Source of the DNA: Rubrobacter tropicus
Lineage (GTDB): Bacteria > Actinomycetota > Rubrobacteria > Rubrobacterales > Rubrobacteraceae
Assembly (NCBI RefSeq): GCF_011492945.1
Contig: NZ_CP045119.1
Span: forward strand, 3,720,001-3,784,000
Reading direction: 5' to 3'
Length of the DNA: 64,000 bases
The position numbers were made by a program, and so were the translations under genes. How positions within the stretch are numbered: the stretch's first letter is position 1; each line of letters begins with the position of its first letter. The notes under the pieces were generated by a model. It did no database searches. It had not been told where the DNA came from and saw only the letters and a list, made by a program, of their open reading frames with translations. Shown in pieces: positions 12,946 to 54,089 of the stretch.

Positions 12946-12990
12946 GCTGCCGGACCAGGATTCGAACCTGGACTAAGTGATTCAGAGTCA
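12946..12990 (-). other. tRNA-Gln 3' fragment, att-like copy 1
   Basis: On the minus strand the segment reads GACTCTGAATCACTTAGTCC, then CAGGTTCGAATCCTGGTCCG and GCAGC. This is an anticodon arm with CTG (Gln), a variable region, a perfect T arm and the 3' acceptor strand. The sequence 5' of it does not form a D arm or a matching 5' acceptor (TGCCGGA expected), so this is not a full tRNA. Such 3' halves are typical attachment cores of tyrosine integrases. Related copies are at 26214-26257 and 54046-54089. Confidence 0.75.
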
Positions 12991-13151
12991 CCCAACGGAC
13001 CCCGCAGCCGGCCGTCACGCACCGTCAAAGGCCGCCGCAAAACCGAAACGCCCGAGCCTCAATGAGACCCGGGCGTCGTGGATCGCCGTAGATAGCCGCG
13101 CAGTCTTGGTCAGGATCTTGGTCAGCGAAGATAGTCTCCAGAGATCCGGCA

Positions 13152-26213: not shown

Positions 26214-26257
26214 GCTGCCGGACCAGGATTCGAACCTGGACTAAGTGATTCAGAGTC
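26214..26257 (-). other. tRNA-Gln 3' fragment, att-like copy 2
   Basis: Identical to copy 1 over the 44 bases from the anticodon loop to the 3' acceptor strand. The 5' side (CATCACGCCC) cannot pair with the anticodon stem, so it is only a fragment. It has arm-like sites on both sides, as an attP or a junction between tandem elements would. Confidence 0.75.
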
Positions 26258-30315: not shown

Positions 30316-30681
30316 CTACACCACCTGTCCCAGCAGCCGCTCCACCGTCCCGCGGTCCAAACCCTTCCACGCCGCGGGCTTCCCTATCTCCGGCCGGACC
30401 TCTTCGCCCTCGGCGTGGGCTATCTCCCTGACCTCATAGTGCGAGAAGACTACCAGCTCGAAGGTCTCGGCCCGACCGTCGGTGGCCTCGGGAGGCCAGT
30501 GCTCGATCCACACCGGCGCCCTTTCCATGCGGTGGTAAACCATCACCTCGGCGGTCAGCCGCTCGGTGACGCTTGGGCCGGTGTTGGCGGTGACCGCCGA
30601 GCAGGCGACCGCCGAGCAGACGGCCACCGGCAGGTCGTCGTGCATCAGCTCGCCCTCGGCCTCCGGCAGGAAGATCCTCAT
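30316..30681 (-). CDS. Hypothetical protein
   Basis: 121 residues from the ATG at 30681 with a GCAGGGTG ribosome-like site; a TTG at 30738 would add 19 residues. The sequence MRIFLPEAEGELMHDDLPVA, VCSAVACSAVTANTGPSVTE and later ETFELVVFSHYEVREIAHAE has no family I recognise. It ends 14 nt from the XRE-like gene end (convergent). Third-position GC and composition look coding. Confidence 0.6.
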   Translation of the reverse strand: MRIFLPEAEGELMHDDLPVAVCSAVACSAVTANTGPSVTERLTAEVMVYHRMERAPVWIEHWPPEATDGRAETFELVVFSHYEVREIAHAEGEEVRPEIGKPAAWKGLDRGTVERLLGQVV

Positions 30682-30741
30682 CACCCTGCACCTGCCCCGA
30701 CCTGGCAGAGGATGCACGTAGTCGCTGGCCAAGTACAACCC

Positions 30742-30761
30742 TAACCCGGATTATTCACGGG
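30742..30761 (+). repeat. IS-end-like sequence, left copy
   Basis: TAACCCGGATTATTCACGGG; the same 20-mer with two mismatches is at 32180-32199 in the same orientation, where it precedes an IS1380-type transposase fragment. The two copies bracket the SIR2-RES gene. Confidence 0.55.
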
Positions 30762-30789
30762 CGTGGTCCCGGCTTGCTGGCGAACCTCC

Positions 30790-32109
30790 TTAGCCGCCGT
30801 TGGCGACCCGGTGACGGTTGAGTACGGTTACTCGACTATTAGGCAGTAGAGCGTCAAGGAAAACCACCAAGACTTTCCCGCTTGGCGAGTAGCGGGAGGG
30901 GGCTATAAGCGCCTCTAGACCAGCATCACGAGCCCTTGCGGCGATTCCTCTGCTCAGATGCCGGTCGCTAAGAATCCGTCCGTCTATCTGCATGGCAACG
31001 CGAGTCATGGGGTCAAGCAGGTCCAGAACCTTGTCTAACTGTACTTCTAGCTCGACCAAGTCGAACGGGACGGTCTTAAAGTCGCCAGGTATCCGCCGTG
31101 CGAGTACCTCTGCTAATGCGCTGGCCGGACTCAATGTAGCGTAGAGTGCCCGCTCCCTAGGAGGGTGCCATCGACCGTCAAAAGGCAGGGGCGACTCCAG
31201 AATTACCGGATTCTCGGAGCGAACTATACGATACACGCGGCTGTGGAGGGACCGTGCCGGTAATTCTTGCCGGTCCTCCGTCTTGAGGGGGGCAGCCGCG
31301 CCGCGAATTGCCTCTGACAATCGCTGCATGAAATCGTCGAATTCGACTGAGAGAGCGTTTGAAGGATTTCCGGAGGCACCTAGGGGCTCAGCGATTTCAG
31401 TCGGCACAGTACCGTCCCCAGGACCGACAAACCAGGCTTCTCTCGGCCCTCCTGATTCGAATGCCGGACGAAGAGCCTCAACTATGTCCCGGTCACTGGC
31501 AGAGTACCCGACGAAGATGATCGCGTATTTCCGTACGGCCGATCGGAGCCTCTCAACTAACCAATCCTGTACCTGATTCTGCTCCCACACCATCGTGTCT
31601 GGCTGATCGAAGTCGCCGTGAACTTTGAAGATATCGAAATCCACATCGGGGTCATATCTCATGTCCGCTTCTCTTATGATGGCTCTTGAACGTGGCAAGA
31701 CGAGTTCCAACGCATTGTCCCAGTTCGCCGTATAAAGGAAGTCTGCGAAGTAGCCTTCCACCGTTAGTTCGGCCAAGGATTCATAACCTGAACTGGGCTT
31801 CCCCATTTGAAACAGTGGACGGATCCAGTGGCGAGCCTTGTCCTTCCCGTATTGATCGAGGACGGTTCGAGAAACGTTAGCGAATGTGGGGGAGCGGGAG
31901 TGCTCCTTCTTGAACAGCTCTCGCTGTGACCCTGGCGACTTACACGGGTACAAGAGTTCAAGGTATCGATCTTTGACTTTCTCGCCGAGCGGATAACCGC
32001 TGCTCACGGAGGCGCCGGCACCGGTGAATACAACGTAACCGCCCCCCCTCCTGCCTCTCTGGCTGGCGATCATCTGTCCAAGTGAAGCGATCCTATGTCT
32101 TACCCACAT
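30790..32109 (-). CDS. SIR2-RES fusion protein (two NAD+-consuming domains), defence/toxin candidate
   Basis: 439 residues. Residues ~25-270 form a SIR2 domain: NAD-binding YVVFTGAGASVSSGYP (GAGAS at 30-34), YTANWDNALE with the N129-x-D131 motif, KVHGDFDQPD with catalytic His164, and FVGYSASDRDIVEAL. Residues ~288-430 form a RES domain: SRVYRIVRSENP, then FDGRWHPPRERALYATLSPA and SALAEVLARR, matching the 'R..Y...G.W...G..alY.s.s...A..E' pattern of RES NAD+ phosphorylase toxins. SIR2 domains in ThsA/DSR proteins hydrolyse NAD+, and RES toxins (MbcT) degrade NAD+ with phosphate. A single chain with both is unusual and suggests NAD+ depletion in phage defence. No MbcA/Xre antitoxin is directly adjacent. 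Confidence 0.85.
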   Translation of the reverse strand: MWVRHRIASLGQMIASQRGRRGGGYVVFTGAGASVSSGYPLGEKVKDRYLELLYPCKSPGSQRELFKKEHSRSPTFANVSRTVLDQYGKDKARHWIRPLFQMGKPSSGYESLAELTVEGYFADFLYTANWDNALELVLPRSRAIIREADMRYDPDVDFDIFKVHGDFDQPDTMVWEQNQVQDWLVERLRSAVRKYAIIFVGYSASDRDIVEALRPAFESGGPREAWFVGPGDGTVPTEIAEPLGASGNPSNALSVEFDDFMQRLSEAIRGAAAPLKTEDRQELPARSLHSRVYRIVRSENPVILESPLPFDGRWHPPRERALYATLSPASALAEVLARRIPGDFKTVPFDLVELEVQLDKVLDLLDPMTRVAMQIDGRILSDRHLSRGIAARARDAGLEALIAPSRYSPSGKVLVVFLDALLPNSRVTVLNRHRVANGG

Positions 32110-32179
32110 TTCACACCCTCTTGCTCACAAGGGTAAACAGTACCGTTATAGTAGCGTTAAGCACTTCGATATAGGCAGC

Positions 32180-32199
32180 TAACCCTGCTTATTCACGGG
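32180..32199 (+). repeat. IS-end-like sequence, right copy
   Basis: TAACCCTGCTTATTCACGGG, about 75 bp before the remnant transposase start at 32274; probably the left inverted repeat of the decayed IS1380-type element. Confidence 0.55.
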
Positions 32200-32273
32200 A
32201 CGGGTTGAACTGAGGGGACCTCCTTCGCCACGGTCGGGTTGTTCCAAGACTCGGCGTAGTGAGGGGGCTCTCC

Positions 32274-32520
32274 ATGAGGGATTGTGCCACAACCCCGACA
32301 CGCTTCGACACCCTGACGAAGCTCGCGCTCAAGGCCGTCTTCGACGGCGGCAGCCTCACCAGTGACGGCGGGCTCACTTGGCTGGCCGGGACGGGCTCGG
32401 AGCTGGACTTGTGCGGAACCTGAGCGGAGCACATGCCGGAGTGGCGGCGCGGGAAGGCGCACTACCCTCTGCTCGCCCAGCGGAAGCAGCAACGCGTCCA
32501 GCATAAGTTACGTTCCCGCG
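32274..32520 (+). pseudogene. IS1380-family transposase remnant
   Basis: The N-terminal sequence RFDTLTKLALKAVFDGGSLT, SDGGLTWLAGTGSELDLCGT is the IS1380 start ('f...ltsdgGl..l.e.d..lgl.'). A TGA interrupts at about codon 49. The same frame continues HMPEWRRGKAHYPLLAQRKQ QRVQHKL, which is the normal continuation, and then the homology ends. Over 350 residues of the transposase, including the DDE core, are gone. It marks an old insertion between the SIR2-RES gene and the PIN pair. Confidence 0.75.
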
Positions 32521-32643
32521 CGATCGAAAACCGCAGCAAAGTCGTAGGGAGACGCTCTCCGGAGCCGGTTCGGGCAAACGTGGTGAGGCTCAGACCCTCG
32601 CGCACACCGCCGAGACCAGCACCATGCGAGTCACGGATTCGTT

Positions 32644-33084
32644 TTAAAGGAGCCCAGCCTCCCAGAGACGGACGAACTGCGCGGGTCCCAGTACCGGCAC
32701 CGGCGGATCGCTCATCTGGAGGATGTCGTCGTCTCCGCTGACAACGTAGGAGGCCCTCTCCAGGACCGCGGCCATGACGTAGGGATCGTCTTCCGGGTCG
32801 CCCGTGTAGGAGGGCACCTCGTCCGAGTCGCCCGTGGAGATCTCTGTGATAGCGAGTCGCAGCCGCCTCACATATGCTCCGATCTGCGAAGAGTCCCACT
32901 TCAGCCGGTTGGCTATCTTGGGCCGGGCTAGCACCTCCTCGATCTTGGGGAAAAGCTGCGACGGCGCGCAGAGCTCGAAGTCGTGCGGGCCCTCTCCTAA
33001 AGCGTGGTCCAGAATGCGTGCAGGACTACCCTTCGAGCTAAGTACCGCGGAGACGCACACGTTGGCGTCCACCACGACTCTCAA
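32644..33084 (-). CDS. PIN-domain ribonuclease toxin
   Basis: 146 residues: MRVVVDANVCVSAVLSSKGS with the first catalytic Asp (D6), Glu in LFPKIEEVLARP, DPEDDPYVMAAVLERA and YVVSGDDDILQM with the later acids. This is the COG1569-type PIN (VapC-like) arrangement. The gene begins 3 nt after the end of the antitoxin gene. It should cleave RNA when released from the antitoxin; RNA target unknown. Confidence 0.9.
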   Translation of the reverse strand: MRVVVDANVCVSAVLSSKGSPARILDHALGEGPHDFELCAPSQLFPKIEEVLARPKIANRLKWDSSQIGAYVRRLRLAITEISTGDSDEVPSYTGDPEDDPYVMAAVLERASYVVSGDDDILQMSDPPVPVLGPAQFVRLWEAGLL

Positions 33085-33087
33085 AGC

Positions 33088-33411
33088 TTACCGGTCGTCG
33101 GCACTCTTGGTGGGAGGCGTACGGTCTCGCGCGGCTTCCATCTCGGCACCCACCAGCCCTTCCACCTCGTCCCCGGAAAGATCGGAGAAGGCCTCCCTGG
33201 CCTCTCGGGTGGACTCCACGAGCGCCCGCCTTTCTCCTTCCAGATATCGGTAAAGCCTTATGGGCACTAGCGCGAACACTTCCTCCCCGCGGCGCTCAAC
33301 TACCACCGAGCCTCCGCGCTCGACGTCCTGGGCCACCTGCCCTAAGGACCTGCGTAGTGTCTCAAGCGGGATGCGGTTGTTCGTTAACACGAAACACCTC
33401 TCGTTCCACAT
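33088..33411 (-). CDS. Phd/YefM-like antitoxin
   Basis: 107 residues from the ATG at 33411. The N-terminal part RIPLETLRRSLGQVAQDVER, then GGSVVVERRGEEVFALVPIR LYRYLEGE, is the Phd/YefM fold (helix followed by strand 'vvverrGepvAvLvp'). The C-terminal acidic tail would wrap the toxin. It precedes the PIN gene in the normal antitoxin-toxin order. It is divergent from the giant gene at 33509, sharing a 97-bp promoter region. Confidence 0.85.
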   Translation of the reverse strand: MWNERCFVLTNNRIPLETLRRSLGQVAQDVERGGSVVVERRGEEVFALVPIRLYRYLEGERRALVESTREAREAFSDLSGDEVEGLVGAEMEAARDRTPPTKSADDR

Positions 33412-33508
33412 GAACCGTGCGGTCCACATGGTACCATCAAGTCGTGTCATCTCGTGTTTCACAACCCTGCCCCTCACTCCGTGCGACAGCGTGCCATGGG
33501 GACGTCGA

Positions 33509-36500
33509 ATGAGCACAAGACGCGACGACTTCGTAGCCAAAGTTAGGAAAGTGCTCGCCGAGCGGGCGGGGGTTCGATGCTCGAATCCCGAATGCCAGAA
33601 GACCACGAGCGGTCCGAACTCAGAGCCCGAGAAGTCCGTGAACATCGGCGTCGCAGCCCACATCACCGCCGCGGCTCCCGGCGGACCGCGGTACGACGCG
33701 GCGCTCACCCGCGCGGAAAGGAAGAGCGCGAAGAACGGCATTTGGCTGTGTCAGACTTGCGCGAAGCTGATCGACAACGACTCGCAGCGTTTCCCCACGT
33801 CGCTTCTTCACGACTGGAAGAGGGGCGCCGAAGCCAGGGCTTTAGCCTCGGTCAGCGGCACCTCCCCAGCGGCGAAAGCGTCCGTGACCTCCGCTTCCGC
33901 CGCTCTTCTCGCGGGAGAGGTGGATCGGCTCGCCGCCCACGTCTCGGATACCGTCGATCGGGACCTGAAGCGCATGACCTCTGCGTGGCGGGAAGGCCGA
34001 ACTCGTGAGGTGGTGGAGTGGCTGGACGAAGTTAGAAGAGACGAGTCCAGATGGCGTGCCACGGCCCCCGCCTTGAAGGCGAGGTTGCTGAGGTTGGAAG
34101 CCAGCATGGCGCTGGAAATGGCGGACGACGTCGAAAGGGCCAAGAGGCTGGCGGACGAAGCGCGATCCGAAGCTCCTCTGGAAAACGATACCCGGTTAAG
34201 GGCCGTTATAGCCTACGCGGAGTCGGGACCAGAAGCGGCGGTCGAGCTGCTCGCCGAAGAGCGGGACATCGACGCCCTTAACCTTAGAGCCGGACTTCTG
34301 CTCGAGGTCAAACGAGCCGACCGGGCGGAGGAGGCCCGGGCTGTCCTAGACCTCAGCGGCACCGACCTGGAACCGAACGCCGAGACTTTTCGGGTGCGGG
34401 CCCTCTCCTGCCTCGCGTCCAAGGATTTGAACCGGGCGCAACTGGAGATACAGAAGGCCCTGGAACTCGGGGAACGGTGGGAGAGCGTGCGGTTTACCGC
34501 CGCGACGGTCGATTACCTCAGCTCCCTCTCTCCGGCGGCCCTGCCGGACAACGGCCCCGTGCCGTGGCCGGAGCCGGTGGACTGGCACCTGGTCAAGCGC
34601 GACGGCGAAAGCTTGGTCAGGCTGCGAGCGGCGGGGCGGACGTTCGAACAGTTGGCTGCGTCCGTCGAAGTAGCTGAGGAGAAACGCCGACTAGAAACCT
34701 GGCGACTGGCATGTCTGGCGAACGACCCTGACAAACTGCAGGAGGCCCATGACTACTGCGAGGCGATCTTGCAGGCCGATCCGGGTCACTACCGCGCCGT
34801 ACTGTGGGCGATCGCGCGCGGCATCGACGTCGACCTGAGCCCGAGCGAGACAGCGTTGGCAGAACTCGTCGCGGATGGTGTTGCGGAGCACGCGCACATC
34901 CTGGCTTTGACAAGCTTGTACTTCGTATCCGGCATGATGGTCGAGGCGGCGAAGCTGTTGGATGACACGAAGCACGTGTTTAGAGAGATCGGGGCCGACG
35001 CGCTTTGGACGTTCTGGCGCGCACAAGCATCGACGCTCGCCGGTGACGCCGAGGCCGCAATAGGGTTGCTGGACCGAGCCGGACAAGACGAGGATCGGCT
35101 GCGGGAGGCCCGCACGTTGGCGCTGCGAGCGCTCGCGGAGAAAACCGGCGATTGGGAGAGCCTAATCAGGCATCTGGAAACCTCCTACGAGGAGACCGGG
35201 GACGCCGACTTTCTGGCGAAATACTGCGAGCTAATGGCGCAGAGGCAACATTGGTCCTACGTGGCGGACAGGGCGGAGGAACTGGTCGACAAGATCGGCA
35301 CCGACGAGGCGGTCAGGCTCGCCGCGATCGCCGCGTATCTCTCGGATCGCTTCCGTCTCTGCATCAAGCTGCTGGACAAGCACAGGAATCTCTTCGTCCA
35401 AGGAAAGCTGCCCGACGAGCTTAGGCGCATTCGGGCCCTTTCCAGATCCGCCGTCGGCACCCTCCCGAAAGCGGTGGTCGAGGCCGAAGCGCTGGCGGAA
35501 GAATCCCCTACCACCCCTAACCTTGTCTCACTTGCGCAACTCTACTTCGCGCAGGGCGACCTGAAATCGCTGGCCGTGATCTCGCGCCGCCTTAAAGATG
35601 CGCCAGATCTGTCCCCCGAGTACCGCTTGGAGTTGAGCCGGCTGGTGCAACTGGAAGACCAGAGGCTAGCCGCGGCCCTATGGAGGGAAACCGTCTCCCA
35701 AGACCTGCCCGACTCTCTGGTCGGTATGGCCGTCTCACTGGGATTTCAGCTCAATCTCGAAGAGGAGGTGGGTCCGCTCGTCGCGAGGATGGCAGAGTTG
35801 GGGAATCGGGGCGAGGGAGGCGTTCAGGCGGTCAAGGCCGCGAACCTCCTCTCATTCCTGGAAGAGCGCCGAAAGGAAATGGCCGAGCTCGACGAACTCT
35901 ATCGCAAAGGTTCGGCACCTGTCCACCTTATCGCGGAGCAGGCGAACCGATCGTTGTTGGAGCTGTACCATGGAAGACCCTCCGCAAATGAAAGGGCGCC
36001 TGCTCCGACGATCCAACCCATCCTCTTTGTTCGCCACGGCGGTCGTGGACCCGTCCCCGATTCTGATGGCGCGCTGGTTGGGCGCCGCCTCCATCTGGAT
36101 GTGACGTCGGTGCTCCTGGCAGCACACTTGGAGATCCTCCAGCCGACGGAAGAGGCCTTCGGCCCGCTACGCATCCCGGCGGATCTTATACCCGCCCTGG
36201 TACTGATGACGGAGAAGACGTCGCACCATCAACCCTCGAAGATCGAGGAGTACAAACAGGTCGTGGAACTGGCAGAGGCCGGCTCGTTGGAAGTCGTGAG
36301 CACCGAACTGCGGACCGACCACGACGCCCGCTTGGTCGAAGAGCTCGGCGAAGACTGGGTAGCCGCGTTCGAGCAAGCGCGCGCGGAAAATGGGTTCCTA
36401 CTCGACTTCTTGCCGCCCGTCAGGCTCGGCCTGGATGGGCCACCCATGTCGTTGCCGGAGGACGCGGAGAAACGCCTGGTCAACTGCCGATCACTACTTG

Positions 36501-39500
36501 AGGTGTTGCGTCAGCGCGGACAGCTCTCCGACCGAGAATACGCGCGCGCTCGAAGCCGGCTGGGAGACGAGGGGCGAAAAGAGCCAAGCTCGGCGAGTCC
36601 CGAGGCGGACTCGATCCTGTACTGCGACGGGGGAATGGCCGAGCTTCTGGCGGGCGCCGGGATACTTTGGGCGGCTTGCGGGCTCTTCCGAATGCGTGTG
36701 GGTCAGCGAGAGCTGGACGGGGCTCGGGCGTCTTTGCGGTATCACGAGTACGCTCGCAGTCAGGTCGAGTGGCTCAACGATTTGATCGACAGGCTGAGGG
36801 GCGGTATCGAGGACGGCACGTACGAGGTTATCCCCGCGCCTTCCCGAAAGGAAGAGGACCCCAAGCTCGCGGATTCGGCCCAGCTGGATCTGATCTGCCT
36901 GGAGACACTGTTCAGGTTCGAGGCAGAAGACGGCGACGTGGTCTGGATCGACGACCGGATGGCGAACAGCTACCCGGCCAGAGGCAGTGTACCCATAGTC
37001 GGCGTCTTGGAGGTTCTGCGAGCACTGGTCGCCGCAGGTCATCTGTCCGAGGACGAGTGCTATGACAGAATCGAACGGCTGCGGGCGGCCAACGCACGGT
37101 TCATCCCCCTCCATCAAGACGAGATTCTCTACCACCTCCGGAAGGCCCAGGTAATGGAGACGGGCGTTCTCGAGTCGCGGCCACTTCGTACCCTGAGACG
37201 TTACTATGCTGCCTGCCTCTCGCGGATCGAAGATCTCCAGCGGCCTCCGATGCCAGAGGCCGCTCCCAACCAGTTCGGGGAGCTCGAGTTCGTCGTCGGC
37301 CTTAACCGCTCCGCCTCCAGCGCTCTCCCCGAACTGTGGAAGGGGAACGAGGAAGACTACGCACGCAGAGTTAGGGCGGAGTGGCTGCTGGCCAACCTGT
37401 ACCTGGATTTGCCAGCGCTCGCGCGCATGACCTGGTCGCAAACCGAGGAAGAGGACGACCGCTACAGGCTGGCCGTCGAACTCGCCGGGCTGTTGTCCCA
37501 GGCGATGCAACTCGATTGGCGCGTCCATGGGGACGAGTCGTCGCCGCGCCGGACGTACCTCGCCTGGTTGCACGAGCGTGTTCTGAGCAAGCGCTTCGAC
37601 GCTGATCCCGATCTGATCAGTGAGGTGGCAGAGTCCCTCAAAGAGGGTTTCGCAGAGATACAGGAGAACATCGAGGGCGAGGATCAAGCGCGGGCGGCGA
37701 GCCTCTCGCTCCGTCTGTTCCTCGCTGATCTTCCCGAGACGTTGCAGAAAGAACTCGGTCTTGACGCCAAACTCATGGAGAGCATAGGCATCAAGCATCC
37801 GAGAGTGGCGAGCATCGGCGACCTCTCGTTCGACCCCGACGCATTTGCGCGGGCGGCAACCGAGGCGGTCAACGGCCGCGAAGCGAAGATCGCTCTGGTC
37901 GAAGGAGACGAGAAGATCACGTTCTCCCCCCTGCAAGACCAAGCGGGCACTGTCGGACTGCGCTTGGCACTACCGGGGGACGGTGGGGATACCAACATTA
38001 CCGATGAGATCCTTACCGTGCTCAGACAATCGGTCACGGAGCGCGAGGCGGTACTTCGGAGGAACCGCCGCTGGTTCGACTGCCGGGACGACGAGTTCGA
38101 GCGCGCGGTCGTGGAGATCGCCTCCGCCGACGACCCCCAGCGACGGCTCGACGAGACCGAGAGATGGCGAAACACCAGCATGGCGGTGTTCTACGCAAAC
38201 CTGCACAGGCGGCTGGCTCAACAGCGGATGTTCAAGCTACCCGAGCTGCGTCCCCCGGACGCCAAGGCGTTGAGCCGGCACTTGCGGCTCCATCCCGAGA
38301 CGGGATCCGGCGGAGAATTCCGGGCCGCCCTCGATGCGGCTGCCGATAACCTCATCAGGGAAGAGGGACTTATCGTGGCGATCGAGCGGCTCGCCGGCCT
38401 CCCGGTTCCTTTGCCGAAGCCCGTGATAGAAGCCGTCGCGGCCATGTCCCCCGCAGATCGTTGTTCGCTCTTCCGACGATTGCTAACCGCTCCGGGCTCG
38501 CCACCCTCAAAGATGCAAGTCGTTAGGCTCTTGAGCCGCTTCGCCGAAGACACAGAAGCCTACTATCGGCTCGGGCGCCGGATCGCCGCTCGGTACTTTT
38601 CCCTCGACGGAGCAGAAGAGTTCGATGCCTTCCTCTCGATACTCAAGTGGGTCAACGACGAGTTCGACCGCTGGCCGGAGGCACGTTCCTGGAGCCATAC
38701 CATCCGTTCGACGATGGTTTGGGCCCACGCCCACCGGCTCTTCGTCATCCTGGTCTCCACGGGGGCTCCCTTTCACTGGCTAGGTCGCACCTTCGCCCAA
38801 CCCGGCGACAGGCGTATGACATCGGAAGTGTTCGAGCGGTCCCGTGAATACTGGTTGGATGTCACCCATCCGCGCCGAGTAACCAGGGAAGCTTTCCTGC
38901 TCGGGGGCCTGCCTTACGGCCTCGGCGACAAGGCCCAGAGGTTCGCCAACGAGGCCTCCTTGGAGACCGCGGACGGGATGCAGGGGGCTCAGCTGTTCCG
39001 GGATCCCACGCTGGCGCGCAACGACCTGAGCTCCTACTTGGGCGGGGACAGGGGAGAAAGACTATCGAGTCTCCTCGGTTCAGAGCAATCCGACCTCTAC
39101 TCCCGGCAAGCCCTCAGATCGTTAGTGAAGGAGAAGCTAGACAGACGGGGGGGCCCGGAGCAGGAACACTTAATGTGGGCCTCGATACACGCCGTAATCG
39201 GCGACCTGCCCCCCTACGAAGACTTGGTGGCACCCCTCGACGAAGCCGTCAGACAAACGGATTTCGTCGTATTGACGCGAAAGAACGTCCAGACCGGAAT
39301 CCTCGCGGTACACACAGCTTCGCAGCTGTCGCTGAACTTGGGCGACGAGGGCTGGAGAAGTCGTCTAAAGGAACAACTCGTTGGGATAGGAGCTCTCTTT
39401 GCCGAGTCGGACAGCGGAGCAGGCAGTGAGCAGGCCAGTGTTCAAGCTTTTACGGGAAACGTGAACTTTTCGGCGTTGGTGGACGCGGCACTTGCGGTCT

Positions 39501-39673
39501 GTTCTCCAGGAGATGTCCACCCCGAGTTCGCCGCGCTTGTCGATCGACTAGCAGGCGCCTGGCCCGCAACAACTCCCTTCTTCAGGCTCACGGTGCTACG
39601 CCTCTGCGAGGAGTTACCAGTTTCGCAGGCCAAGAACTACTGGCCCCTGCTCGTCAGGCTGCGCGCAGAATAG
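33509..39673 (+). CDS. Giant HNH-like/TPR/PIN protein (2,054 aa), defence candidate
   Basis: Start ATG at 33509 (MSTRRDDFVAKVRKVLAERA); an earlier in-frame start would overlap the antitoxin gene. Residues ~20-100 are an HNH-like zinc module: CSNPEC at 24-29, AHITAAAPGGPR and NGIWLCQTCAKLIDND, with Ala where a classical HNH has the second His. Residues ~130-850 are TPR-like helical repeats. Residues ~855-1190 look like a PIN nuclease: LHLDVTSVLLAAHLEIL, then ILYCDGGMAELLAGAGI, VVWIDDRMANSYPARGSVPI and VGVLEVLRALV. The last ~850 residues are helical with no recognised domain. No membrane segment. The layout suggests a sensor-effector protein. It is isolated as a single gene, convergent with the Xis-like gene. 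Confidence 0.8.
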   Translation: MSTRRDDFVAKVRKVLAERAGVRCSNPECQKTTSGPNSEPEKSVNIGVAAHITAAAPGGPRYDAALTRAERKSAKNGIWLCQTCAKLIDNDSQRFPTSLLHDWKRGAEARALASVSGTSPAAKASVTSASAALLAGEVDRLAAHVSDTVDRDLKRMTSAWREGRTREVVEWLDEVRRDESRWRATAPALKARLLRLEASMALEMADDVERAKRLADEARSEAPLENDTRLRAVIAYAESGPEAAVELLAEERDIDALNLRAGLLLEVKRADRAEEARAVLDLSGTDLEPNAETFRVRALSCLASKDLNRAQLEIQKALELGERWESVRFTAATVDYLSSLSPAALPDNGPVPWPEPVDWHLVKRDGESLVRLRAAGRTFEQLAASVEVAEEKRRLETWRLACLANDPDKLQEAHDYCEAILQADPGHYRAVLWAIARGIDVDLSPSETALAELVADGVAEHAHILALTSLYFVSGMMVEAAKLLDDTKHVFREIGADALWTFWRAQASTLAGDAEAAIGLLDRAGQDEDRLREARTLALRALAEKTGDWESLIRHLETSYEETGDADFLAKYCELMAQRQHWSYVADRAEELVDKIGTDEAVRLAAIAAYLSDRFRLCIKLLDKHRNLFVQGKLPDELRRIRALSRSAVGTLPKAVVEAEALAEESPTTPNLVSLAQLYFAQGDLKSLAVISRRLKDAPDLSPEYRLELSRLVQLEDQRLAAALWRETVSQDLPDSLVGMAVSLGFQLNLEEEVGPLVARMAELGNRGEGGVQAVKAANLLSFLEERRKEMAELDELYRKGSAPVHLIAEQANRSLLELYHGRPSANERAPAPTIQPILFVRHGGRGPVPDSDGALVGRRLHLDVTSVLLAAHLEILQPTEEAFGPLRIPADLIPALVLMTEKTSHHQPSKIEEYKQVVELAEAGSLEVVSTELRTDHDARLVEELGEDWVAAFEQARAENGFLLDFLPPVRLGLDGPPMSLPEDAEKRLVNCRSLLEVLRQRGQLSDREYARARSRLGDEGRKEPSSASPEADSILYCDGGMAELLAGAGILWAACGLFRMRVGQRELDGARASLRYHEYARSQVEWLNDLIDRLRGGIEDGTYEVIPAPSRKEEDPKLADSAQLDLICLETLFRFEAEDGDVVWIDDRMANSYPARGSVPIVGVLEVLRALVAAGHLSEDECYDRIERLRAANARFIPLHQDEILYHLRKAQVMETGVLESRPLRTLRRYYAACLSRIEDLQRPPMPEAAPNQFGELEFVVGLNRSASSALPELWKGNEEDYARRVRAEWLLANLYLDLPALARMTWSQTEEEDDRYRLAVELAGLLSQAMQLDWRVHGDESSPRRTYLAWLHERVLSKRFDADPDLISEVAESLKEGFAEIQENIEGEDQARAASLSLRLFLADLPETLQKELGLDAKLMESIGIKHPRVASIGDLSFDPDAFARAATEAVNGREAKIALVEGDEKITFSPLQDQAGTVGLRLALPGDGGDTNITDEILTVLRQSVTEREAVLRRNRRWFDCRDDEFERAVVEIASADDPQRRLDETERWRNTSMAVFYANLHRRLAQQRMFKLPELRPPDAKALSRHLRLHPETGSGGEFRAALDAAADNLIREEGLIVAIERLAGLPVPLPKPVIEAVAAMSPADRCSLFRRLLTAPGSPPSKMQVVRLLSRFAEDTEAYYRLGRRIAARYFSLDGAEEFDAFLSILKWVNDEFDRWPEARSWSHTIRSTMVWAHAHRLFVILVSTGAPFHWLGRTFAQPGDRRMTSEVFERSREYWLDVTHPRRVTREAFLLGGLPYGLGDKAQRFANEASLETADGMQGAQLFRDPTLARNDLSSYLGGDRGERLSSLLGSEQSDLYSRQALRSLVKEKLDRRGGPEQEHLMWASIHAVIGDLPPYEDLVAPLDEAVRQTDFVVLTRKNVQTGILAVHTASQLSLNLGDEGWRSRLKEQLVGIGALFAESDSGAGSEQASVQAFTGNVNFSALVDAALAVCSPGDVHPEFAALVDRLAGAWPATTPFFRLTVLRLCEELPVSQAKNYWPLLVRLRAE

Positions 39674-39688
39674 CAAGCACGCTCGCGT

Positions 39689-40048
39689 TCAGCGGCTCAT
39701 GAGCCACTCGTCGACCTCCCTGACGTTGTAGAGGATCCCACGCTCGCTGACGTAGTGCCTGGGAAGGTGCGGCGCGATCCTCTCGAACTGCTTCTTGGTC
39801 CTTTTGAGGTGCAGCCGGATTCCCTCACCGTCCGCCCACTCTTCTCGCTGTATCAAAGCGAGCTCCCTGGTGGTTTGCGACAAGCTCTCGGCGACCTCCG
39901 AGAGAGTACGCGCCACGTCGGCGAGAGCCGAGGTCTCGAACTGGCGCAAGGCCTCCCTCGTCTCCGATAGGGTCGTTGCCGCCTCCACTAAAGAGGATGT
40001 GCGATCTGCGCCAACGGGTTCGCCGCTTCTCTCCTTTTCGCCAAGCAC
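39689..40048 (-). CDS. Excisionase-like DNA-binding protein with coiled-coil
   Basis: 119 residues from a GTG at 40048. Residues ~18-70 are a heptad-rich helix (TTLSETREALRQFETSALAD VARTLSEVAESLSQTTREL). The C-terminus LPRHYVSERGILYNVREVDE WLMSR matches the winged-helix end of AlpA/Xis proteins ('...r.ilf....vdeWl'). The GTG is 6 nt from the -10 TAATAT, so the message would be leaderless, and the operator 40059-40075 overlaps this promoter. It is likely a directionality factor or regulator of the mobile element, although the coiled-coil is unusual for Xis. Confidence 0.6.
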   Translation of the reverse strand: MLGEKERSGEPVGADRTSSLVEAATTLSETREALRQFETSALADVARTLSEVAESLSQTTRELALIQREEWADGEGIRLHLKRTKKQFERIAPHLPRHYVSERGILYNVREVDEWLMSR

Positions 40049-40432: not shown

Positions 40433-43400
40433 TCAGCGCAACGCGGCGTTGATGAGGAACGCCTCTACACGCAGGTCCCCCTGTGAGAGTTTCGCGGCTT
40501 TCGCGTTGAGCTTGCGCAGGGCGTCCTTCGGATCGCGCCGCATGGCGGTCTTGTGCCTCGGATCCTCTTTGTCCCATTGGGGACAGTTGAACCACCCAAC
40601 CAGGTACAGCCCGTGCCTGCAGCGGTTGTCGCGCAGGTACCTGCCCGCGAGCTGCGCCTCCATCTCGTGGTACAGCCTCTGGTACCAGTTACCCTTGGCC
40701 TCGATGATGACCGTCACGGGGCCGTACTCCTCGGTGCGCGGGCCGCGCACCGTGGCATCCACGCGTATGTCGGTCCTTCGGCCTTTGCTTTCGCCTTCGC
40801 CTCGGCTTATGACAACCTCCCGATTTACGACCACGCCCCTGCGCTCCAGGTCTTCCTGAAGGTGCCTCTTCACGTAGTCGGAAAACCTTTCTTCGCCCTT
40901 CGGCCTCTGGGTCCCATCGTCGCGCTCGTTCCAGAGGTCGGGCGCCGCGGGGGTTTCGCCCCGCAGGTTGTCCTCCAGCCTGCCCAGCGACTCGATCACG
41001 ACATCCAGGAGTTGGTCCCCGTTTCGCACCAGCCTCGCTGTCCGTTCTGCGGTCAGCTTGCGCACCCCGGTAGGATCAGGGGCGGTCCAGGTCTTGAGCC
41101 GCGCTTCGGCCCTGGCCTGGTACAGGGTCCAGCGCAGCGTCTCGAGGAGGGCGGGCAACGCCTCCATGATTCGTTCGATCTGCCGGCAGGCCTCGAAGGT
41201 CCCGCGACCGCGCAGGTTTCCGGGTATGTCGTCCCGCCACATGGCGATGCTCTCCTTGAGGCCGATGGCGGTCAGGTGCCCGTCGTCGCGGTACTTCATG
41301 AAGTATTCGGAGGGCGGGTAGCGGTCCATCAGCCAGATGTACAGGTCGGCCGCCTCCGACTCGGAGAGGCGCTTCTGCGGGCGGTTGGAATGGTGGGCCG
41401 TGCTGGCGATGGCGTCCACCAACTCGTCGGCGAATCCCTCGTCTCTTTGCAAGGCCGGCCACACCACGGACCAGCCCGCGTCGGCCGCGTGAAATATGAG
41501 GGCCCCCGCGGCCACCACCGCACGTGCCCTCGCTCCCTCTTCTTCATTCCCGGCCCCGGAGACGACAAGCGACTCCGCGAAGGCCTCCGCTTCGTCGAGT
41601 CCGTAGTCCAACAGGTCGTTCAGCAAGGACGAAAGGCAGGAGGGCTTCAGTCGTTCGTCCTGTGCCTTCCTCAGTAGGGCATGCGCGAGCCGATCGTCCC
41701 AGCACTTCTCAAGATCGCGGGTGACCGACAAGAAGCCCTGTTCTTCGTTCTCTTTGTCGATCAGGAACAGCGCGGTGTCGATGACCGTCCCGGGGGCGTG
41801 TCGGTAGGCCATCGCTACCAGTTCGTGGTGCGGCTTCATCCCTTCGGTGCTCGTCGAGATCGGGTAGCCGAGGATCGCGGCGGCCCATCTCTCCCACGCC
41901 TCGTCCGGGATCTCGGCGACGAAGTCCGGCGCCAGATTTACCAGCAGCCGGAGCGCACGGTAGCCAGCGTCCGTAGGGTGAGCCTCCCAGATCGAGCCTT
42001 CGCCCAACCAACCGTCTAGTTCCGGCTCGCCTTCCAGGACGTACCGCTCGGCCGCCCCTACTATCCTGTCCCTGGTCGCGGCGTCCGCGGCCTCCCACCC
42101 GGGCAGAGCGGTGAGGTCCCACTCCGTCGGGCTTACTCGGGAGCGTCCGTCCTCGTCGAACTTCAGGAAGTAGTCGACGCGCCGCCAGAACGCGCCCACG
42201 TCGCCGGCCTCGGCATCGTCCAGCGCGCGGAGAATCCTCTCCTTCAGTGGCGGGTCCGGCGGCGGAGACTCCTCGCGGTTCTCGCGCCAGCTTAGACTCT
42301 CGCGGTGGTAGCGACGCTGCTCCTCGGCCTGAGTGGACGATAGCTCGACCGGGTCGAAGAAGCGGCCGACCTCGTCGGCGAGCGCCGGTGTTCTCTGGTA
42401 GGCAAGGTACAAGAGCTCGTGCTGCTCGTCGCCCCAGCCGTAAAAGGATCGTCGTACGAGGGCGGCCAGGACTTCCCTTCCGCGTCCAGGGGGCGCGGCC
42501 TCCAGCTCCCCGATCAGCCACGCGGCGTCCTTGGCGAGCAAGAGCGGCGTCTTGTATTGGACGAGGAGCCAGGCCCCGTCGTCCTCATCCTGGAGCAGCC
42601 CGAGCATCTCCACCATCAGGCCACGCCGCTTCCGGTCGTCTGCGGCGACTCGGTTGCGGAAGGACGGTTCGTCGGAGTCGGACGCCACGAATACGGGCCT
42701 CCGCTCCTGCACTATCTCGTCGTGCTTCCTCAGACGCGCGAGGGCGGCCCTGGCGAAGGCTTCCTTGACGCCCGGATCGTCCAAGTGATCCCAAGCCCGC
42801 AGCATGATCTGGTCCATAAGGCCCGCGAGCCTGTAGGACGCCTCGTGGCGTCGCTGCTGACCTTCCACCCACGCGAGCGCCTCAGGAAGATCGGCCGGCC
42901 GTAGGCGCTCGGGCAGGTCGTCGTTGAGGAACGACGCGTAGGACCCGAAGTAGTTGTCGTTTGGCCTTGCCAAGGACCGGAACAACTCATCGGCGGTCAG
43001 GTGCTCGGGCCACAAGGCGTGGAGTCCCCACCCCCTGAGGTCGCCGTTCGGGTCTTCGCCGGCCTCTCCCAAAGCCAGCGGCCTGAGCAGAGACCTCGTC
43101 GGCCCGTCCCCGACGTGGGCCACGAACGACGCCGCTTCCTTACGGACGAAGTGGGGCTGAGAGGCGTCCAAGGCCACCTCGGCTGCCGTCCCCTGCAAGG
43201 TTCGCAGTTCGCACGCCTCTGCGATGTCCAGCGCGACCCTGCGCACCACGAAGTTACGGGTAGCGTCCGCGATGTAAGGTCTGAGCTGTTCCGCCAGGCC
43301 CGGATGGGCAAGCTTCCTGTAATCCTTGTGCGGGATAAGGCCGATGTCGAGCAATTTCCCCTCGTCGTACAGCCGAAGCATGGCGGCTACCAACCCCGCC

Positions 43401-44707
43401 CTGGCTTCCACGTCGGTGCTCGCGACGTCGCTCCGGAGTAGCACCTCGGGCTCTGAGTCCATCACGGCCCAAAAGAATTGGTCAGACACGCTCGCCAGCC
43501 AGGCCGCCGTCTCGTGCAGCTGCGGGACGAGCCTGCCTTCCTCGTCGTCGGGGTGCAGAATGAGCGACATCGCCTGTTCCACCCCTACGTCCCTGCGCGC
43601 TAGATAAAGGGCGGCAAGGAACTCCGCGTAGGTCTGGTGCGCCCAGCCGAGCCTCTCGGAGCCACGGGCGGAGAACAGGCCTGTGTCGAGGACCTCCCTT
43701 ATCGCGGCCTCCCCCACGGGGAATTCTTGTCCGCTGACCGACTCCGCGCCGTAGGCAAGCTCCCTGACCGGGATGTCATCCTCCGCTTGGACGGCCCGCT
43801 CGAGTCCCGTCCAGACGGCCTGCTTACCCGAGAAGATGGTCAACGCCGCCATGCGGGCGGCGACTGCCAGCCGCTGATCGGCGCTGAGTTCCCCGACGAG
43901 CCCCCTGTCGACGCGGTCCTCGTTTCTCTCCTCGCACAAGCGCCGGCAGCCGTCGAGGTAGAGGTCGGCCTGGTGTTTCGGGAACCCGCCGGTTTCCCGG
44001 TAACTGTCAAGTAAGAACTCTAGCGTTACCGGTTTGATCGCCAGCGGCACGGCCTCCGCCTCGTTCACCGCCGCCAGGAAGCTATCCGGGCTCATGTCGT
44101 TGGTCTCGGCCGCCACGGCCACATCCACGCGCCGTAACGGGGCCAACTCGTACACGCCGACGGAGCCCTCTCTCCAGAGCTTGTTCATGCCTCCTTCCAG
44201 CTTCTTCGGCCAATCCGCCGTCCGACATCCAATACGTAGGGATAGGCGATCCACTGGGTGCTCCGCTAACTCTTCTAATAGAAGGTCCACCACGTTGGCC
44301 ATGAGCAGGCGACATTCGTCGAGACCATCCAGGAAGACGTGGAGGCGGTAGTCTCCAGATCTCCACCCCGCGAACTCTTCACCGCCAAACAACCTGCGGG
44401 CGAGTCGGGTCTCACTTCCGTACCCGCCCAGGCTGATCCAGATAGTCTTGTCGCCACCGGCTTCGATCTTTTCCCACTCGTCCCGGAGGGCGGTCGTCTT
44501 GCCGATACCTGGTTCGCCCAATAAGGCAAGACAAGGCACGTCGGAGATGTGCTCGAACGGACGTAGGTCGGAGTTTGCGAACCGCCCGTAGGGACCTTCG
44601 GGATCAGTCAGGTACCCATGGTCACTCAGATCGAGGGCGCCGTTCCATGGACACCAGAATCGTTTCCAATCGTATCGAGATCGGGTCGGCGCGCTCGTGT
44701 CGCTCAT
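40433..44707 (-). CDS. STAND/NACHT-type NTPase A with C-terminal PD-(D/E)XK nuclease
   Basis: 1,424 residues from the ATG at 44707 (GGGGGCG upstream). P-loop GEPGIGKTTAL at residues 64-74 and Walker B VFLDGLDEC give a NACHT/STAND ATPase at the N-terminus. A long helical, HEAT/TPR-like middle follows (~300-1280). Near the C-terminus RTDIRVDATVRG and VTVIIEAKGNWYQRLYHEM (about 1313-1345) fit D-(x)n-E-x-K of a restriction-like nuclease. The nuclease lies C-terminal, opposite to the N-terminal effectors of known Avs proteins and of NTPases B and C. It begins 13 nt after the coupled 101-aa gene, so it is in one operon with NTPase B. Probably a phage-sensing defence protein. Confidence 0.82.
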   Translation of the reverse strand: MSDTSAPTRSRYDWKRFWCPWNGALDLSDHGYLTDPEGPYGRFANSDLRPFEHISDVPCLALLGEPGIGKTTALRDEWEKIEAGGDKTIWISLGGYGSETRLARRLFGGEEFAGWRSGDYRLHVFLDGLDECRLLMANVVDLLLEELAEHPVDRLSLRIGCRTADWPKKLEGGMNKLWREGSVGVYELAPLRRVDVAVAAETNDMSPDSFLAAVNEAEAVPLAIKPVTLEFLLDSYRETGGFPKHQADLYLDGCRRLCEERNEDRVDRGLVGELSADQRLAVAARMAALTIFSGKQAVWTGLERAVQAEDDIPVRELAYGAESVSGQEFPVGEAAIREVLDTGLFSARGSERLGWAHQTYAEFLAALYLARRDVGVEQAMSLILHPDDEEGRLVPQLHETAAWLASVSDQFFWAVMDSEPEVLLRSDVASTDVEARAGLVAAMLRLYDEGKLLDIGLIPHKDYRKLAHPGLAEQLRPYIADATRNFVVRRVALDIAEACELRTLQGTAAEVALDASQPHFVRKEAASFVAHVGDGPTRSLLRPLALGEAGEDPNGDLRGWGLHALWPEHLTADELFRSLARPNDNYFGSYASFLNDDLPERLRPADLPEALAWVEGQQRRHEASYRLAGLMDQIMLRAWDHLDDPGVKEAFARAALARLRKHDEIVQERRPVFVASDSDEPSFRNRVAADDRKRRGLMVEMLGLLQDEDDGAWLLVQYKTPLLLAKDAAWLIGELEAAPPGRGREVLAALVRRSFYGWGDEQHELLYLAYQRTPALADEVGRFFDPVELSSTQAEEQRRYHRESLSWRENREESPPPDPPLKERILRALDDAEAGDVGAFWRRVDYFLKFDEDGRSRVSPTEWDLTALPGWEAADAATRDRIVGAAERYVLEGEPELDGWLGEGSIWEAHPTDAGYRALRLLVNLAPDFVAEIPDEAWERWAAAILGYPISTSTEGMKPHHELVAMAYRHAPGTVIDTALFLIDKENEEQGFLSVTRDLEKCWDDRLAHALLRKAQDERLKPSCLSSLLNDLLDYGLDEAEAFAESLVVSGAGNEEEGARARAVVAAGALIFHAADAGWSVVWPALQRDEGFADELVDAIASTAHHSNRPQKRLSESEAADLYIWLMDRYPPSEYFMKYRDDGHLTAIGLKESIAMWRDDIPGNLRGRGTFEACRQIERIMEALPALLETLRWTLYQARAEARLKTWTAPDPTGVRKLTAERTARLVRNGDQLLDVVIESLGRLEDNLRGETPAAPDLWNERDDGTQRPKGEERFSDYVKRHLQEDLERRGVVVNREVVISRGEGESKGRRTDIRVDATVRGPRTEEYGPVTVIIEAKGNWYQRLYHEMEAQLAGRYLRDNRCRHGLYLVGWFNCPQWDKEDPRHKTAMRRDPKDALRKLNAKAAKLSQGDLRVEAFLINAALR

Positions 44708-44720
44708 CGCCCCCGACCGA

Positions 44721-45026
44721 TCATGCGAATGTCTCCTCAAGGCGCCCACCGACGTCGCAGAGTTGCACCAAGGCTGAAAGCCACATCTCCGGCGAAGAGT
44801 GCAACGGCCGGGTTTCCTGATCTCGTGTCAGTGTCAGACCGCCGAAAGAACCAAGAAACACTGCCGGATGGTTCCCAAACTGCTCTACGTCCCTCTGGTG
44901 CAGACCGTCACCGTAAACAGCCAAGCTGTGCACACCCCTGCGTAGAAACACGGTTGCGCCGATCTTGATCGATTGTTTATGCCCCAAAAGGCCGCTACCT
45001 TCGGCCAGAAAGCGCTCCGCGCTCAC
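44721..45026 (-). CDS. Small coupled protein between NTPases A and B
   Basis: 101 residues from a GTG at 45026 whose GTGA overlaps the NTPase B stop; the TGA at 44721 is 13 nt before the NTPase A start. The sequence (VSAERFLAEGSGLLGHKQSI, KIGATVFLRRGVHSLAVYGD, ...HPAVFLGSFGGLTLTRDQE) has mixed beta/alpha character and coding-like composition; no family recognised. Tight coupling on both sides shows it is a genuine operon member, perhaps an adaptor, regulator or immunity-type partner of the NTPases. It is easily missed because of its GTG start. Confidence 0.75.
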   Translation of the reverse strand: MSAERFLAEGSGLLGHKQSIKIGATVFLRRGVHSLAVYGDGLHQRDVEQFGNHPAVFLGSFGGLTLTRDQETRPLHSSPEMWLSALVQLCDVGGRLEETFA

Positions 45027-48000
45027 AGGTCTATGTCCTCGTCGATCTCCTCGATACGCTCCTTCTCTGCCTTCTCTCGCAGGAAGGCCGCAAACTCCCG
45101 AAGCCAAGGCTTGGCAGCCTCGGGCGTTTCGCGATCCCCAAGGACCCTCTCAACATCTTCAAGCACGGATTCGGTTTGCCCGAACGAGGGGCCCCAGTGG
45201 GATATTATGCCTCCACGGATGCGATGGGCTCCGAGTGCTACGCCGTCCTGAATGTCCACGTTGTCGGGGTACCTCGCTAGCAAACCGACGGCCACGGGCC
45301 AAAATCCAGTTACTGCCGCGGTGATGCTGCGGGCGATCGTTTCGGCCTGTCTTTCGTCCTGATCGGCCAATGCTATCAGCAGGTCGCGGTCCGCTTCCTG
45401 GTCGAGCACGCCCTGCAGCAGCTGCGGGACGCCGATTATCCTGCGTTGCGGCCCAACCGCCGACGAGATCACGAGTCGGATAGCCCTCTCGCGATCGATA
45501 CCTCGTAAAGTCGCCCAGAGTTCGTTCTCCCGACGGTCTCCGAAAGGCTCCCAACCCGCCGCATCAGCCCGTCTCAACAGCGTTTCGAGGAGCCGGAAAC
45601 CCCTTTCGGGGTCCCGCCGGGCGAGCGCGGCGCTTAAGCGGTCGAGGTCGTAGTCATCATGATCGGAAGAGGATCGAGCCGCTTCCAAGCACCTCCACAC
45701 GAAGTTTGCGAGCTCCCCTTCCAGAGGCTTCTCTATCAGATCCCAAAAGTTAGCCACCCTGACGGCGACCATCGCGTGTTCGAGATCTGGGGTCGCGAGC
45801 AGACGCAGCAGTTTCAGGCAATCTTCGGACTCAAGAGGCTCGGTCCACCGTCCGTGCAGGATCCGCTCGACCAACCCTGGGTTCGCACGCCCTTCCGACA
45901 GCAACACGCCGATGCGTTCGATACCAGGCACGCTGCCCCCCAGCCGGCTCGTAGCCACCAAGATGGCCAAGTCGCTGACCTCGCGCGTCTCGGATAGCTC
46001 GTCGAGCTGGTCCTCCACCGACGCGCGGTCGTGCTCCGCTAGGCCGGCCAGGTACGCCCCGAATGGGTCCGCCCCGCCGTCGCGAGATCCGAGACTCTCC
46101 ACCTTCGCAAGCCAACGTTTTTCTGTGTCCAGCTTGCCGAACTGCCAGAAGAAAACGTGGCTCTTTTCGGCCTCCTGTGACAGCAGCCAGTCGAGTAGAT
46201 CGTCCGTCAGCTGCTCCGGGTTATCCAAGATCTCCTGGGCAAGGTCCCGCAACTTCCGAGCGCCCCGTTCGAGGTTGTGCCCGTGCTCGTCGACCTCACG
46301 GTCGTAGTCTTCGAAGGTCCACTCGCCGGCCAGCCTCTTCAACCGGACCGGAAAGCTCCCCGAGTCGAGCCGCTCCATCAGGCGATCGACGTCTTCCACG
46401 GGTTTCTGGGTCTCACCCCCGGGCTCGGTCCCGGGCCGGCTCAGCCCGTCTCGCACCCGGCGTAGCTGGAACGCGAGGTCTGCCACGGGTATGGCCACCT
46501 CCTGGGTCAGCGCCCACTCGACCGCCGTCTCCAGACGCTCGACGGCGACGCGCGGTCGGGCGTAGAAGGCGGACGTGGCGATGGACTTCGGAAGAACGGC
46601 CATCGCCGCGTCGGCGGCCTCTGGATCGTCCGAGCGCGCGACGTCCATGAGCAGCCCGACCAAAGCTTCGACGTACCGCGAGATCTCGTCGCTGGTCATC
46701 GGGGGTGCCGTGTCTAGGGGCGTTGGCCCCTGACTGACGAACAGCATCATTCCCCGCTGCGGGATGCTCCCCTCGATAGCCTTGACCGCCAGCGTGCGCA
46801 TCCCCACAAACTCTTCTTTCTCGAACATCTCCCGGAGTAGCAGTAGTCTCCTGTCGAGCGTCAAGGGAAACTGTGGATTGGTCCAGAAGAAGCTCTCGCA
46901 GAAGACGCTCGTGGCGTTGCTGCCGTGGTCGTCGGTCTCCGCCTCGGCCAACAAACCCAGGCACCGCAGCGCCGTTTGGGCGGTTTCTCTGCGGTAGAGG
47001 CATTCTTGCAGGGCCCACACCAGCTGCTGACGTTCATATCCCGCGATTTCGCGCCGCTCCTGCCGGCTCATCACCGATAGTCCCCTCCAGACCATGTCCA
47101 CGAACCGCCCGGGCTCCGCGGAGGCGGCGGGCCGTAGCAGATCGGGAAGGGACCAAGCGCTGGGCAAGTCTCGGAGGGGGCCGCTCGAGTTGAGCATGGC
47201 GTCCCAGAACAGGGATGCCTCCTCGACGGTCAGGCCTTGCAGGCGCCGAATCATCCTCCGTCTCGCGCGGTCGCTCAGGGCGGAGAAGAGGCCAACGAGT
47301 TCGGAGGCCCGCCCGCGGAGGGCCATCGCGCAGAGGTGGTTGGCGAAGAAGGTCGGGGTCACCTCGGCGTAGGATCCCCTCGGGCGTACGAGGCCGGCGG
47401 CAACCAAGCTATCCAATGTCCCAAGAATGTCGTGCTTGGTTGCGCCATCGCCGAAGTTTTCTAGCACGGCTTCGAGCTCTTCGAGCGCCGCCCTGGCGAC
47501 ACCGACTTGCGGAAGCAGGCTGAGTAACGTCAGCACCTTGAGGGCTTCTTCTCCCAACTTGCGCTTGACCCGGCGCTCGAACGCCTTGCCCACCTGCTCG
47601 GAGAAGGAGCCTGCCCTGGCCCTAAGATCCGGACCGACGCTCGCGGCCGTAAGCAGGATGTCGGGGTTGCCGCCGGCCCGCTCGATCACCCACTGCTCCA
47701 AACCGAAGTCCAAACTTGGCCCGGCTGCCCGCAGCAGCTCCCCCGCCCGCTCTACTGGGAGAGGCTCCAGCTTGAGGGTTGACACCCGATCGTCTTGTCC
47801 GAAGTTGGGCGCGGGCGCGTCCTCGGGCGTGGGTAAGACGATGAGCAGCTTGAGCCCTTCGATGGCCAAAGCGCCGTGGACCAGCTCTTCGGCCTTATCG
47901 GGGTCTGGATCGTCCAAGATGAGGACGACTTCGTTGTCGCACGATCCGAGCATTAGCAGATCCCCTAGTTCGAGCGACCGCGGCTCGACGGCGACGATGG

Positions 48001-53745: not shown

Positions 53746-54045
53746 ATTTCAGTCTTTCTTATCGACCTTGAAGTAACTGGTCCTCACAGGCCTATTGTCC
53801 TAGAAACCTTACTGTGTGTACATATGGAGACTCTGGAGACGAGTTCCGGCATCGAGCGTAACGTAGACAGTACCGCCCTGGCCAACTCCCGTGTTGATCA
53901 ACTCTGCCAGTGCCAGGTCGGGCCGAAGCTTTTCGACATACGTTCATAGAATTCGACCCTAACCCCATGCGTATCGATAGGGGTCCACTGGAGTCTAGCG
54001 AAAACATCGAAAACTGAAAGTCCCGTAGAATGGGGCCCAAGCGGG

Positions 54046-54089
54046 GCTGCCGGATCTGAATTCGAACCAGGACTAAGTGATCCAGAGTC
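54046..54089 (-). other. tRNA-Gln 3' fragment, att-like copy 3 (degenerate)
   Basis: Same layout as copies 1 and 2 but with changes that break the T-stem pairing (CCTGG facing TCAGA). The sequence to its left (ATGGGGCCCAAGCGGGGCTG) matches that left of copy 1; the sequence to its right matches that right of copy 2. It therefore looks like a hybrid, recombined end. Confidence 0.7.

Follow-up and report, generated by a model that had tools for sequence, protein, structure and literature searches.

A large Rubrobacter tropicus protein joining an HNH-like head to a TPR, double-PIN and permuted GreAB-C core: a probable stand-alone immune protein of the predicted TPR-GreA/B-C-PIN kind

The protein reported here is the 2,054-aa product of a single gene of Rubrobacter tropicus (33509..39673, forward strand, in the window, the 64,000-nucleotide stretch of contig NZ_CP045119.1 that was analysed). 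Its domain composition and genomic setting suggest that it is probably an immune protein that works on its own, a representative of the TPR-GreA/B-C-PIN kind with a double PIN, a permuted GreAB-C domain and an HNH effector head. The TPR-GreA/B-C-PIN conflict system, predicted to be antiviral, is characterized by a rapidly evolving constant region with TPR, GreA/B-C and PIN components, coupled to one of 13 effectors that include the HNH domain (Kaur et al., 2021, eLife; PMC8195603). Judged by its sequence features, the protein is a further member of this already predicted system. An initial sequence-only reading had proposed a self-contained defence protein, and several lines of evidence from the comparative analysis point the same way: the swapping of the N-terminal heads, the invariance of key PIN residues, a patchy occurrence, the surrounding island and a CBASS-adjacent paralogous site. 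The part of that proposal which stands is a predicted nuclease-type head on an RNase-type core; the kind of system, however, had already been predicted in 2021 (PMC8195603).

The gene is real. The ORF given in the sequence-only reading is uninterrupted, with no internal stops across its 2,054 codons, against a longest stop-free run of 368 codons in composition-matched shuffles. A start at the in-frame ATG at 33260 was rejected, and 33509 is preferred, because the longer version overlaps the antitoxin gene on the opposite strand and because the point at which the HNH homology sets in speaks for the shorter one. The order of domains is: the HNH head, the TPR-like region, HTH_upst_double_PIN, the double-PIN block, Permuted_GreAB-C and a helical C-terminus; no P-loop domain was matched by Pfam in the core. 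All the modules named in the earlier domain sketch are thus present, but the Permuted_GreAB-C domain had been overlooked.

With the TPR-GreA/B-C-PIN system the protein shares a stand-alone gene, a variable N-terminal effector head and a core comprising TPR-like repeats, a GreA/B-C domain and a PIN with conserved acids. It differs from that system in three respects: it has a double PIN in place of one; its GreAB-C domain is permuted and follows the PIN block, whereas there it precedes the PIN; and it carries an extra C-terminal solenoid of ~560 aa. Single-PIN relatives in the phylum are proteins of 1,220-1,232 aa. Three Pfam entries are tied to the system (PF20698, PF24407 and PF24388), and since the double-PIN/permuted-GreAB-C form already has entries among them, it is not a new kind. 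The literature searched yielded neither a source paper for PF24407 and PF24388 nor an experimental test of the TPR-GreA/B-C-PIN system.

From residue 136 onward the core can be aligned over its length, with 22-34% identity, to proteins from cyanobacteria, acidobacteria, verrucomicrobia and proteobacteria, while the regions upstream of the equivalent position are unrelated among the members. These alternative heads include: an Mrr-like restriction endonuclease (REase) head in L005-L007, L015-L017 and L021, with weak, sub-cut-off Pfam matches; an Mrr-like head in L010; a caspase head in L008 (PF00656); and a phosphorylase/nucleosidase (PNPase) head in L018 (PF01048). L019 and L020 have short N-termini with no recognised head. 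The head of L009 is unassigned: by eye it had resembled a DUF4297/Cap4-type nuclease, but this was rejected as no library supported it. In a tree built from 13 cores, at least two changes have to be assumed for the REase head, and the present protein contributes a clear example of swapped heads on a ~1,900-aa core. In the verrucomicrobial L018 (8017-14699) the core is divided between two overlapping ORFs of 646 and 1,581 aa, which may be either two coupled genes or an assembly frameshift.

The core is patchily distributed. It is present in one of 39 genomes of Rubrobacteraceae, that of R. tropicus, and 396 genomes of the phylum gave just one further match, weak and partial. A single-protein query against the GTDB contigs recovered no close relatives, and a five-sequence profile recovered 7 loci. 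Relatives of the core were not found in viral contigs or phage records, and hence the core is not seen as phage cargo. Several homologues are on plasmids, two of these near ParA/ParB genes. The annotated homologue loci have no neighbour in common, as befits a stand-alone gene, and none of the homologues was seen to have a housekeeping role, which would have spoken against defence.

The HNH-like zinc head (residues 5-112; 33521..33844, +) had been recognised in the sequence-only reading, together with an alanine in place of its second histidine, and both observations hold. Residues ~1-110 gave matches to CBASS SAVED-HNH effectors (PADLOC SAVED1--SAVED_HNH) and to the solved chains 9om4, 8ysq and 7rwm, in each case in the HNH portion. 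Cysteines 24/29 and 81/84, which are likely to be zinc ligands, are present and H51 and N76 are retained; the place of the last histidine of the motif is occupied by A85, within CQTCAKLID. The head therefore lacks the complete His-Asn-His motif of classical HNH nucleases, and its activity is uncertain. Most of its close relatives share this feature: that histidine is absent in eight of ten relatives of the module, being replaced by A, S or G. The N-terminal module of the CBASS Cap5/SAVED-HNH endonucleases (PDB 7rwm, 7rwk, 8ysq; PMC8568899) is homologous; in contrast to Cap5, the head sits here on a wholly different core and has Ala for the last motif His. No SAVED domain was found in the protein with any domain library used, and no cyclase (CD-NTase) among the scanned neighbours of its gene. 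The same head also occurs on short proteins and on NACHT/STAND-like proteins (L023, L029), large multi-domain defence proteins that have an NTPase, whereas the present core has no P-loop match. The latter two are encoded on rhizobial plasmids, and the heads of this group mostly lack the last motif histidine.

Cleavage of DNA by the head is thus doubtful on its sequence, and it is conceivable, if doubtful in turn, that the PIN block is the sole weapon and cleaves only RNA, with the HNH head a catalytically dead, zinc-dependent module for binding DNA or a partner, or for dimerisation. Such a division of labour would fit the alanine at residue 85 and its non-histidine counterparts in the module relatives, and the headless L019 and L020 suggest that the core may work alone. 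It fits less well with the retention of H51 and N76, with the occurrence of the module in CBASS endonuclease effectors and with the toxic-enzyme types among the alternative heads. Moreover, the solved relative 8ysq has a glycine at the same position, so the missing histidine need not mean missing function. In the preferred reading of a nuclease-type head on an RNase-type core the head is a putative effector.

The conserved core begins with a TPR-like helical region (residues 136-778; 33914..35842, +), delimited by Pfam matches and core alignments. The TPR-type Pfam matches are all below cut-off in the protein itself and stronger in its homologues, in agreement with the TPR-like middle noted from the sequence. 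It is followed by HTH_upst_double_PIN (residues 779-846; 35843..36046, +; Pfam E 2.2e-20), with PF24407 above its curated cut-off. Next come PIN unit 1 (residues ~858-1003; 36080..36517, +), with D864 (codon 36098-36100) and E881 (36149-36151), and PIN unit 2 (residues ~1034-1210; 36608..37138, +), with the DDR motif D1148-D1149-R1150 (36950-36958) and E1205 (37121-37123). Not one of the 13 aligned cores departs from D864, E881, D1149, R1150 or E1205, and D1148 is D or E; the invariant residues make a short list of mutation targets that is new here. The PIN block thus has conserved acids, which in an active PIN ribonuclease would be expected to cluster in space around a metal.

A model of residues 775-1270, of moderate confidence (pLDDT 67), has two successive beta-alpha units. 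Structural re-alignment placed it with the PIN domains of SMG6, EST1A and PAE2754 at Z 8.4-9.1, the next match being at Z 3.7; a Foldseek search with the model gave no match at E <= 0.001, and a search of the block against PDB sequences no meaningful one. Together with the adjoining HTH_upst_double_PIN and a weak, sub-cut-off match to PF20698 (PIN-TPR-GreABC) at residues 863-965, the re-alignment substantiates the PIN-like block that had been placed at 860-1190. We speak of a double PIN because of the Pfam name, the topology of the model and the behaviour of PF20698, which matches unit 1 in the present protein, L018 and L019, and unit 2 in L005 and L008. Profile comparison of the two units detected no repeat at the shallow alignment depth available. 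The first-strand acid is conserved in unit 1 only, the equivalent residue 1040 of unit 2 being D in 1 of 13 cores. In the single-PIN relatives of the phylum (L033, L034) both conserved motifs lie within one PIN, and the re-aligned ranges of the known PIN domains extend from unit 1 into unit 2. We infer that the two units share the work, possibly as one active site. The one-protein anti-phage system DS-3 (PD/DefensePredictor, PMC13092281) has a PIN whose parts lie at opposite ends of the protein, N- and C-terminal, and which mutation showed to be required; by its description it resembles the present protein in being a single protein with a PIN.

The same loss of the first-strand acid in unit 2, and the undetectable repeat, would also be expected if both units were degenerate and served as an RNA-binding part of the sensor, leaving the head as the sole enzyme. 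We consider this unlikely, since five acid or arginine positions are invariant although the bacteria compared differ at two sites in every three: this invariance is hard to explain unless it is demanded by catalysis or metal binding.

The Permuted_GreAB-C domain (residues 1436-1486; 37814..37966, +) is matched by Pfam at E 3.1e-10, with 39.9 bits against a cut-off of 27. It falls within a beta patch (~1434-1497) that is the one exception to the helical solenoid predicted for residues 1255-2054; the "850 more helical residues" of the sequence-only reading are hence mostly helical in the model, but not across this patch. The region had no meaningful match among PDB sequences. After it comes an ARM/HEAT-like C-terminal solenoid (residues ~1500-2054; 38006..39670, +), modelled partly at low confidence, which matches karyopherins and ARM repeats, a likeness that is informative for the fold class and little more. 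Kaur et al. proposed that the GreA/B-C domain binds the beta' coiled coil of RNA polymerase (PMC8195603), and by analogy the GreAB-C domain may, speculatively, dock the present protein on the polymerase. While the domain is clear in the 2,054-aa protein, most core homologues show scarcely a trace of it, and docking may therefore not be general, nor serve as a universal trigger.

If the protein is indeed an immune protein, the following course of action can be envisaged. The TPR region and the C-terminal solenoid would recognise a sign of infection, the protein being inactive until then; the PIN block would thereupon cut RNA through the conserved acids spread across its two units; and the HNH head would act as the variable executioner, damaging DNA or, if catalytically dead, binding it. 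As a result the infected cell would give little phage. In this scheme the GreAB-C domain may speculatively hold the protein on RNA polymerase, following Kaur et al. (2021). A more elaborate version is quite improbable: here partly degenerate units would form a shared site (D864/E881 with D1149/R1150/E1205) that is switched on by GreAB-C docking on RNA polymerase, yielding a two-weapon protein, directed at RNA and then at DNA, which senses hijacked transcription. Were the coupling to the polymerase true, it would amount to an immune strategy with hijacked transcription as both signal and target, in keeping with the 2021 prediction for the system of an immune protein acting at RNA polymerase.

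The gene resides in an island of ~28 kb bounded by repeats of a tRNA gene. Two direct repeats of the 3' end of a tRNA-Gln gene (12945-13021) form att-like island edges: a 44-bp repeat at 26214..26257 (+; 44/44) and a 60-bp repeat that includes the adjoining flank at 54030..54089 (+; 92%). No integrase related to that at 61339-62559 was found inside the island. Its other genes include: Avs2, a STAND NTPase (49121-53512, -; PADLOC E 1.7e-146); a STAND/AAA protein related to PD-Lambda-4_A (45023-48766, -; PADLOC 9e-10); an NTPase-like protein of 1,438 aa with a GEPGIGKTT motif and no Pfam or PADLOC match (40433-44749, -); and, by domain matches, a SIR2_2 + RES fusion (30790-32109, -). The neighbour scan also found a PIN_3/Phd toxin-antitoxin pair in the island, and so recovered both the toxin-antitoxin pair and the NTPase genes that had been remarked on before.

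Within the island a 9.2-kb block that includes the gene (30451..39690) is missing at a paralogous locus of the same genome (C1:4.007 Mb), where homologues of both flanks of the block are only 40 bp apart. A CBASS operon, comprising CD-NTase, E2 and 1TM-effector genes, adjoins this locus (L035 4972-7750; C1:4.008-4.011 Mb). With an empty paralogous site and CBASS next door, the block behaves as cargo at a mobile-element defence site; the finding of copies of one such site, with this gene at one and CBASS adjoining the other, is new here. The two site copies diverge by 15-25% and the block edges bear no target-site duplication beyond a chance-level 9-bp match; this does not prove in which direction the site changed. 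That the protein is instead a housekeeping or plasmid-maintenance transcription factor, acting on RNA polymerase through GreAB-C with no defence role, is highly improbable: the GreAB-C-like domain and the plasmid-borne homologues, two of them near ParA/ParB genes, would suit it, but not the swapped effector-enzyme heads, the patchy distribution, the Avs2, SIR2-RES and other defence genes around it, or the CBASS at the paralogous site.

Two of the neighbouring products merit separate mention. The SIR2_2-RES fusion unites two types of NAD-consuming enzyme in one protein, an unusual pairing, and the STAND/AAA protein encoded at 45023-48766 has an N-terminal stretch that, judged by eye, is REase-like.
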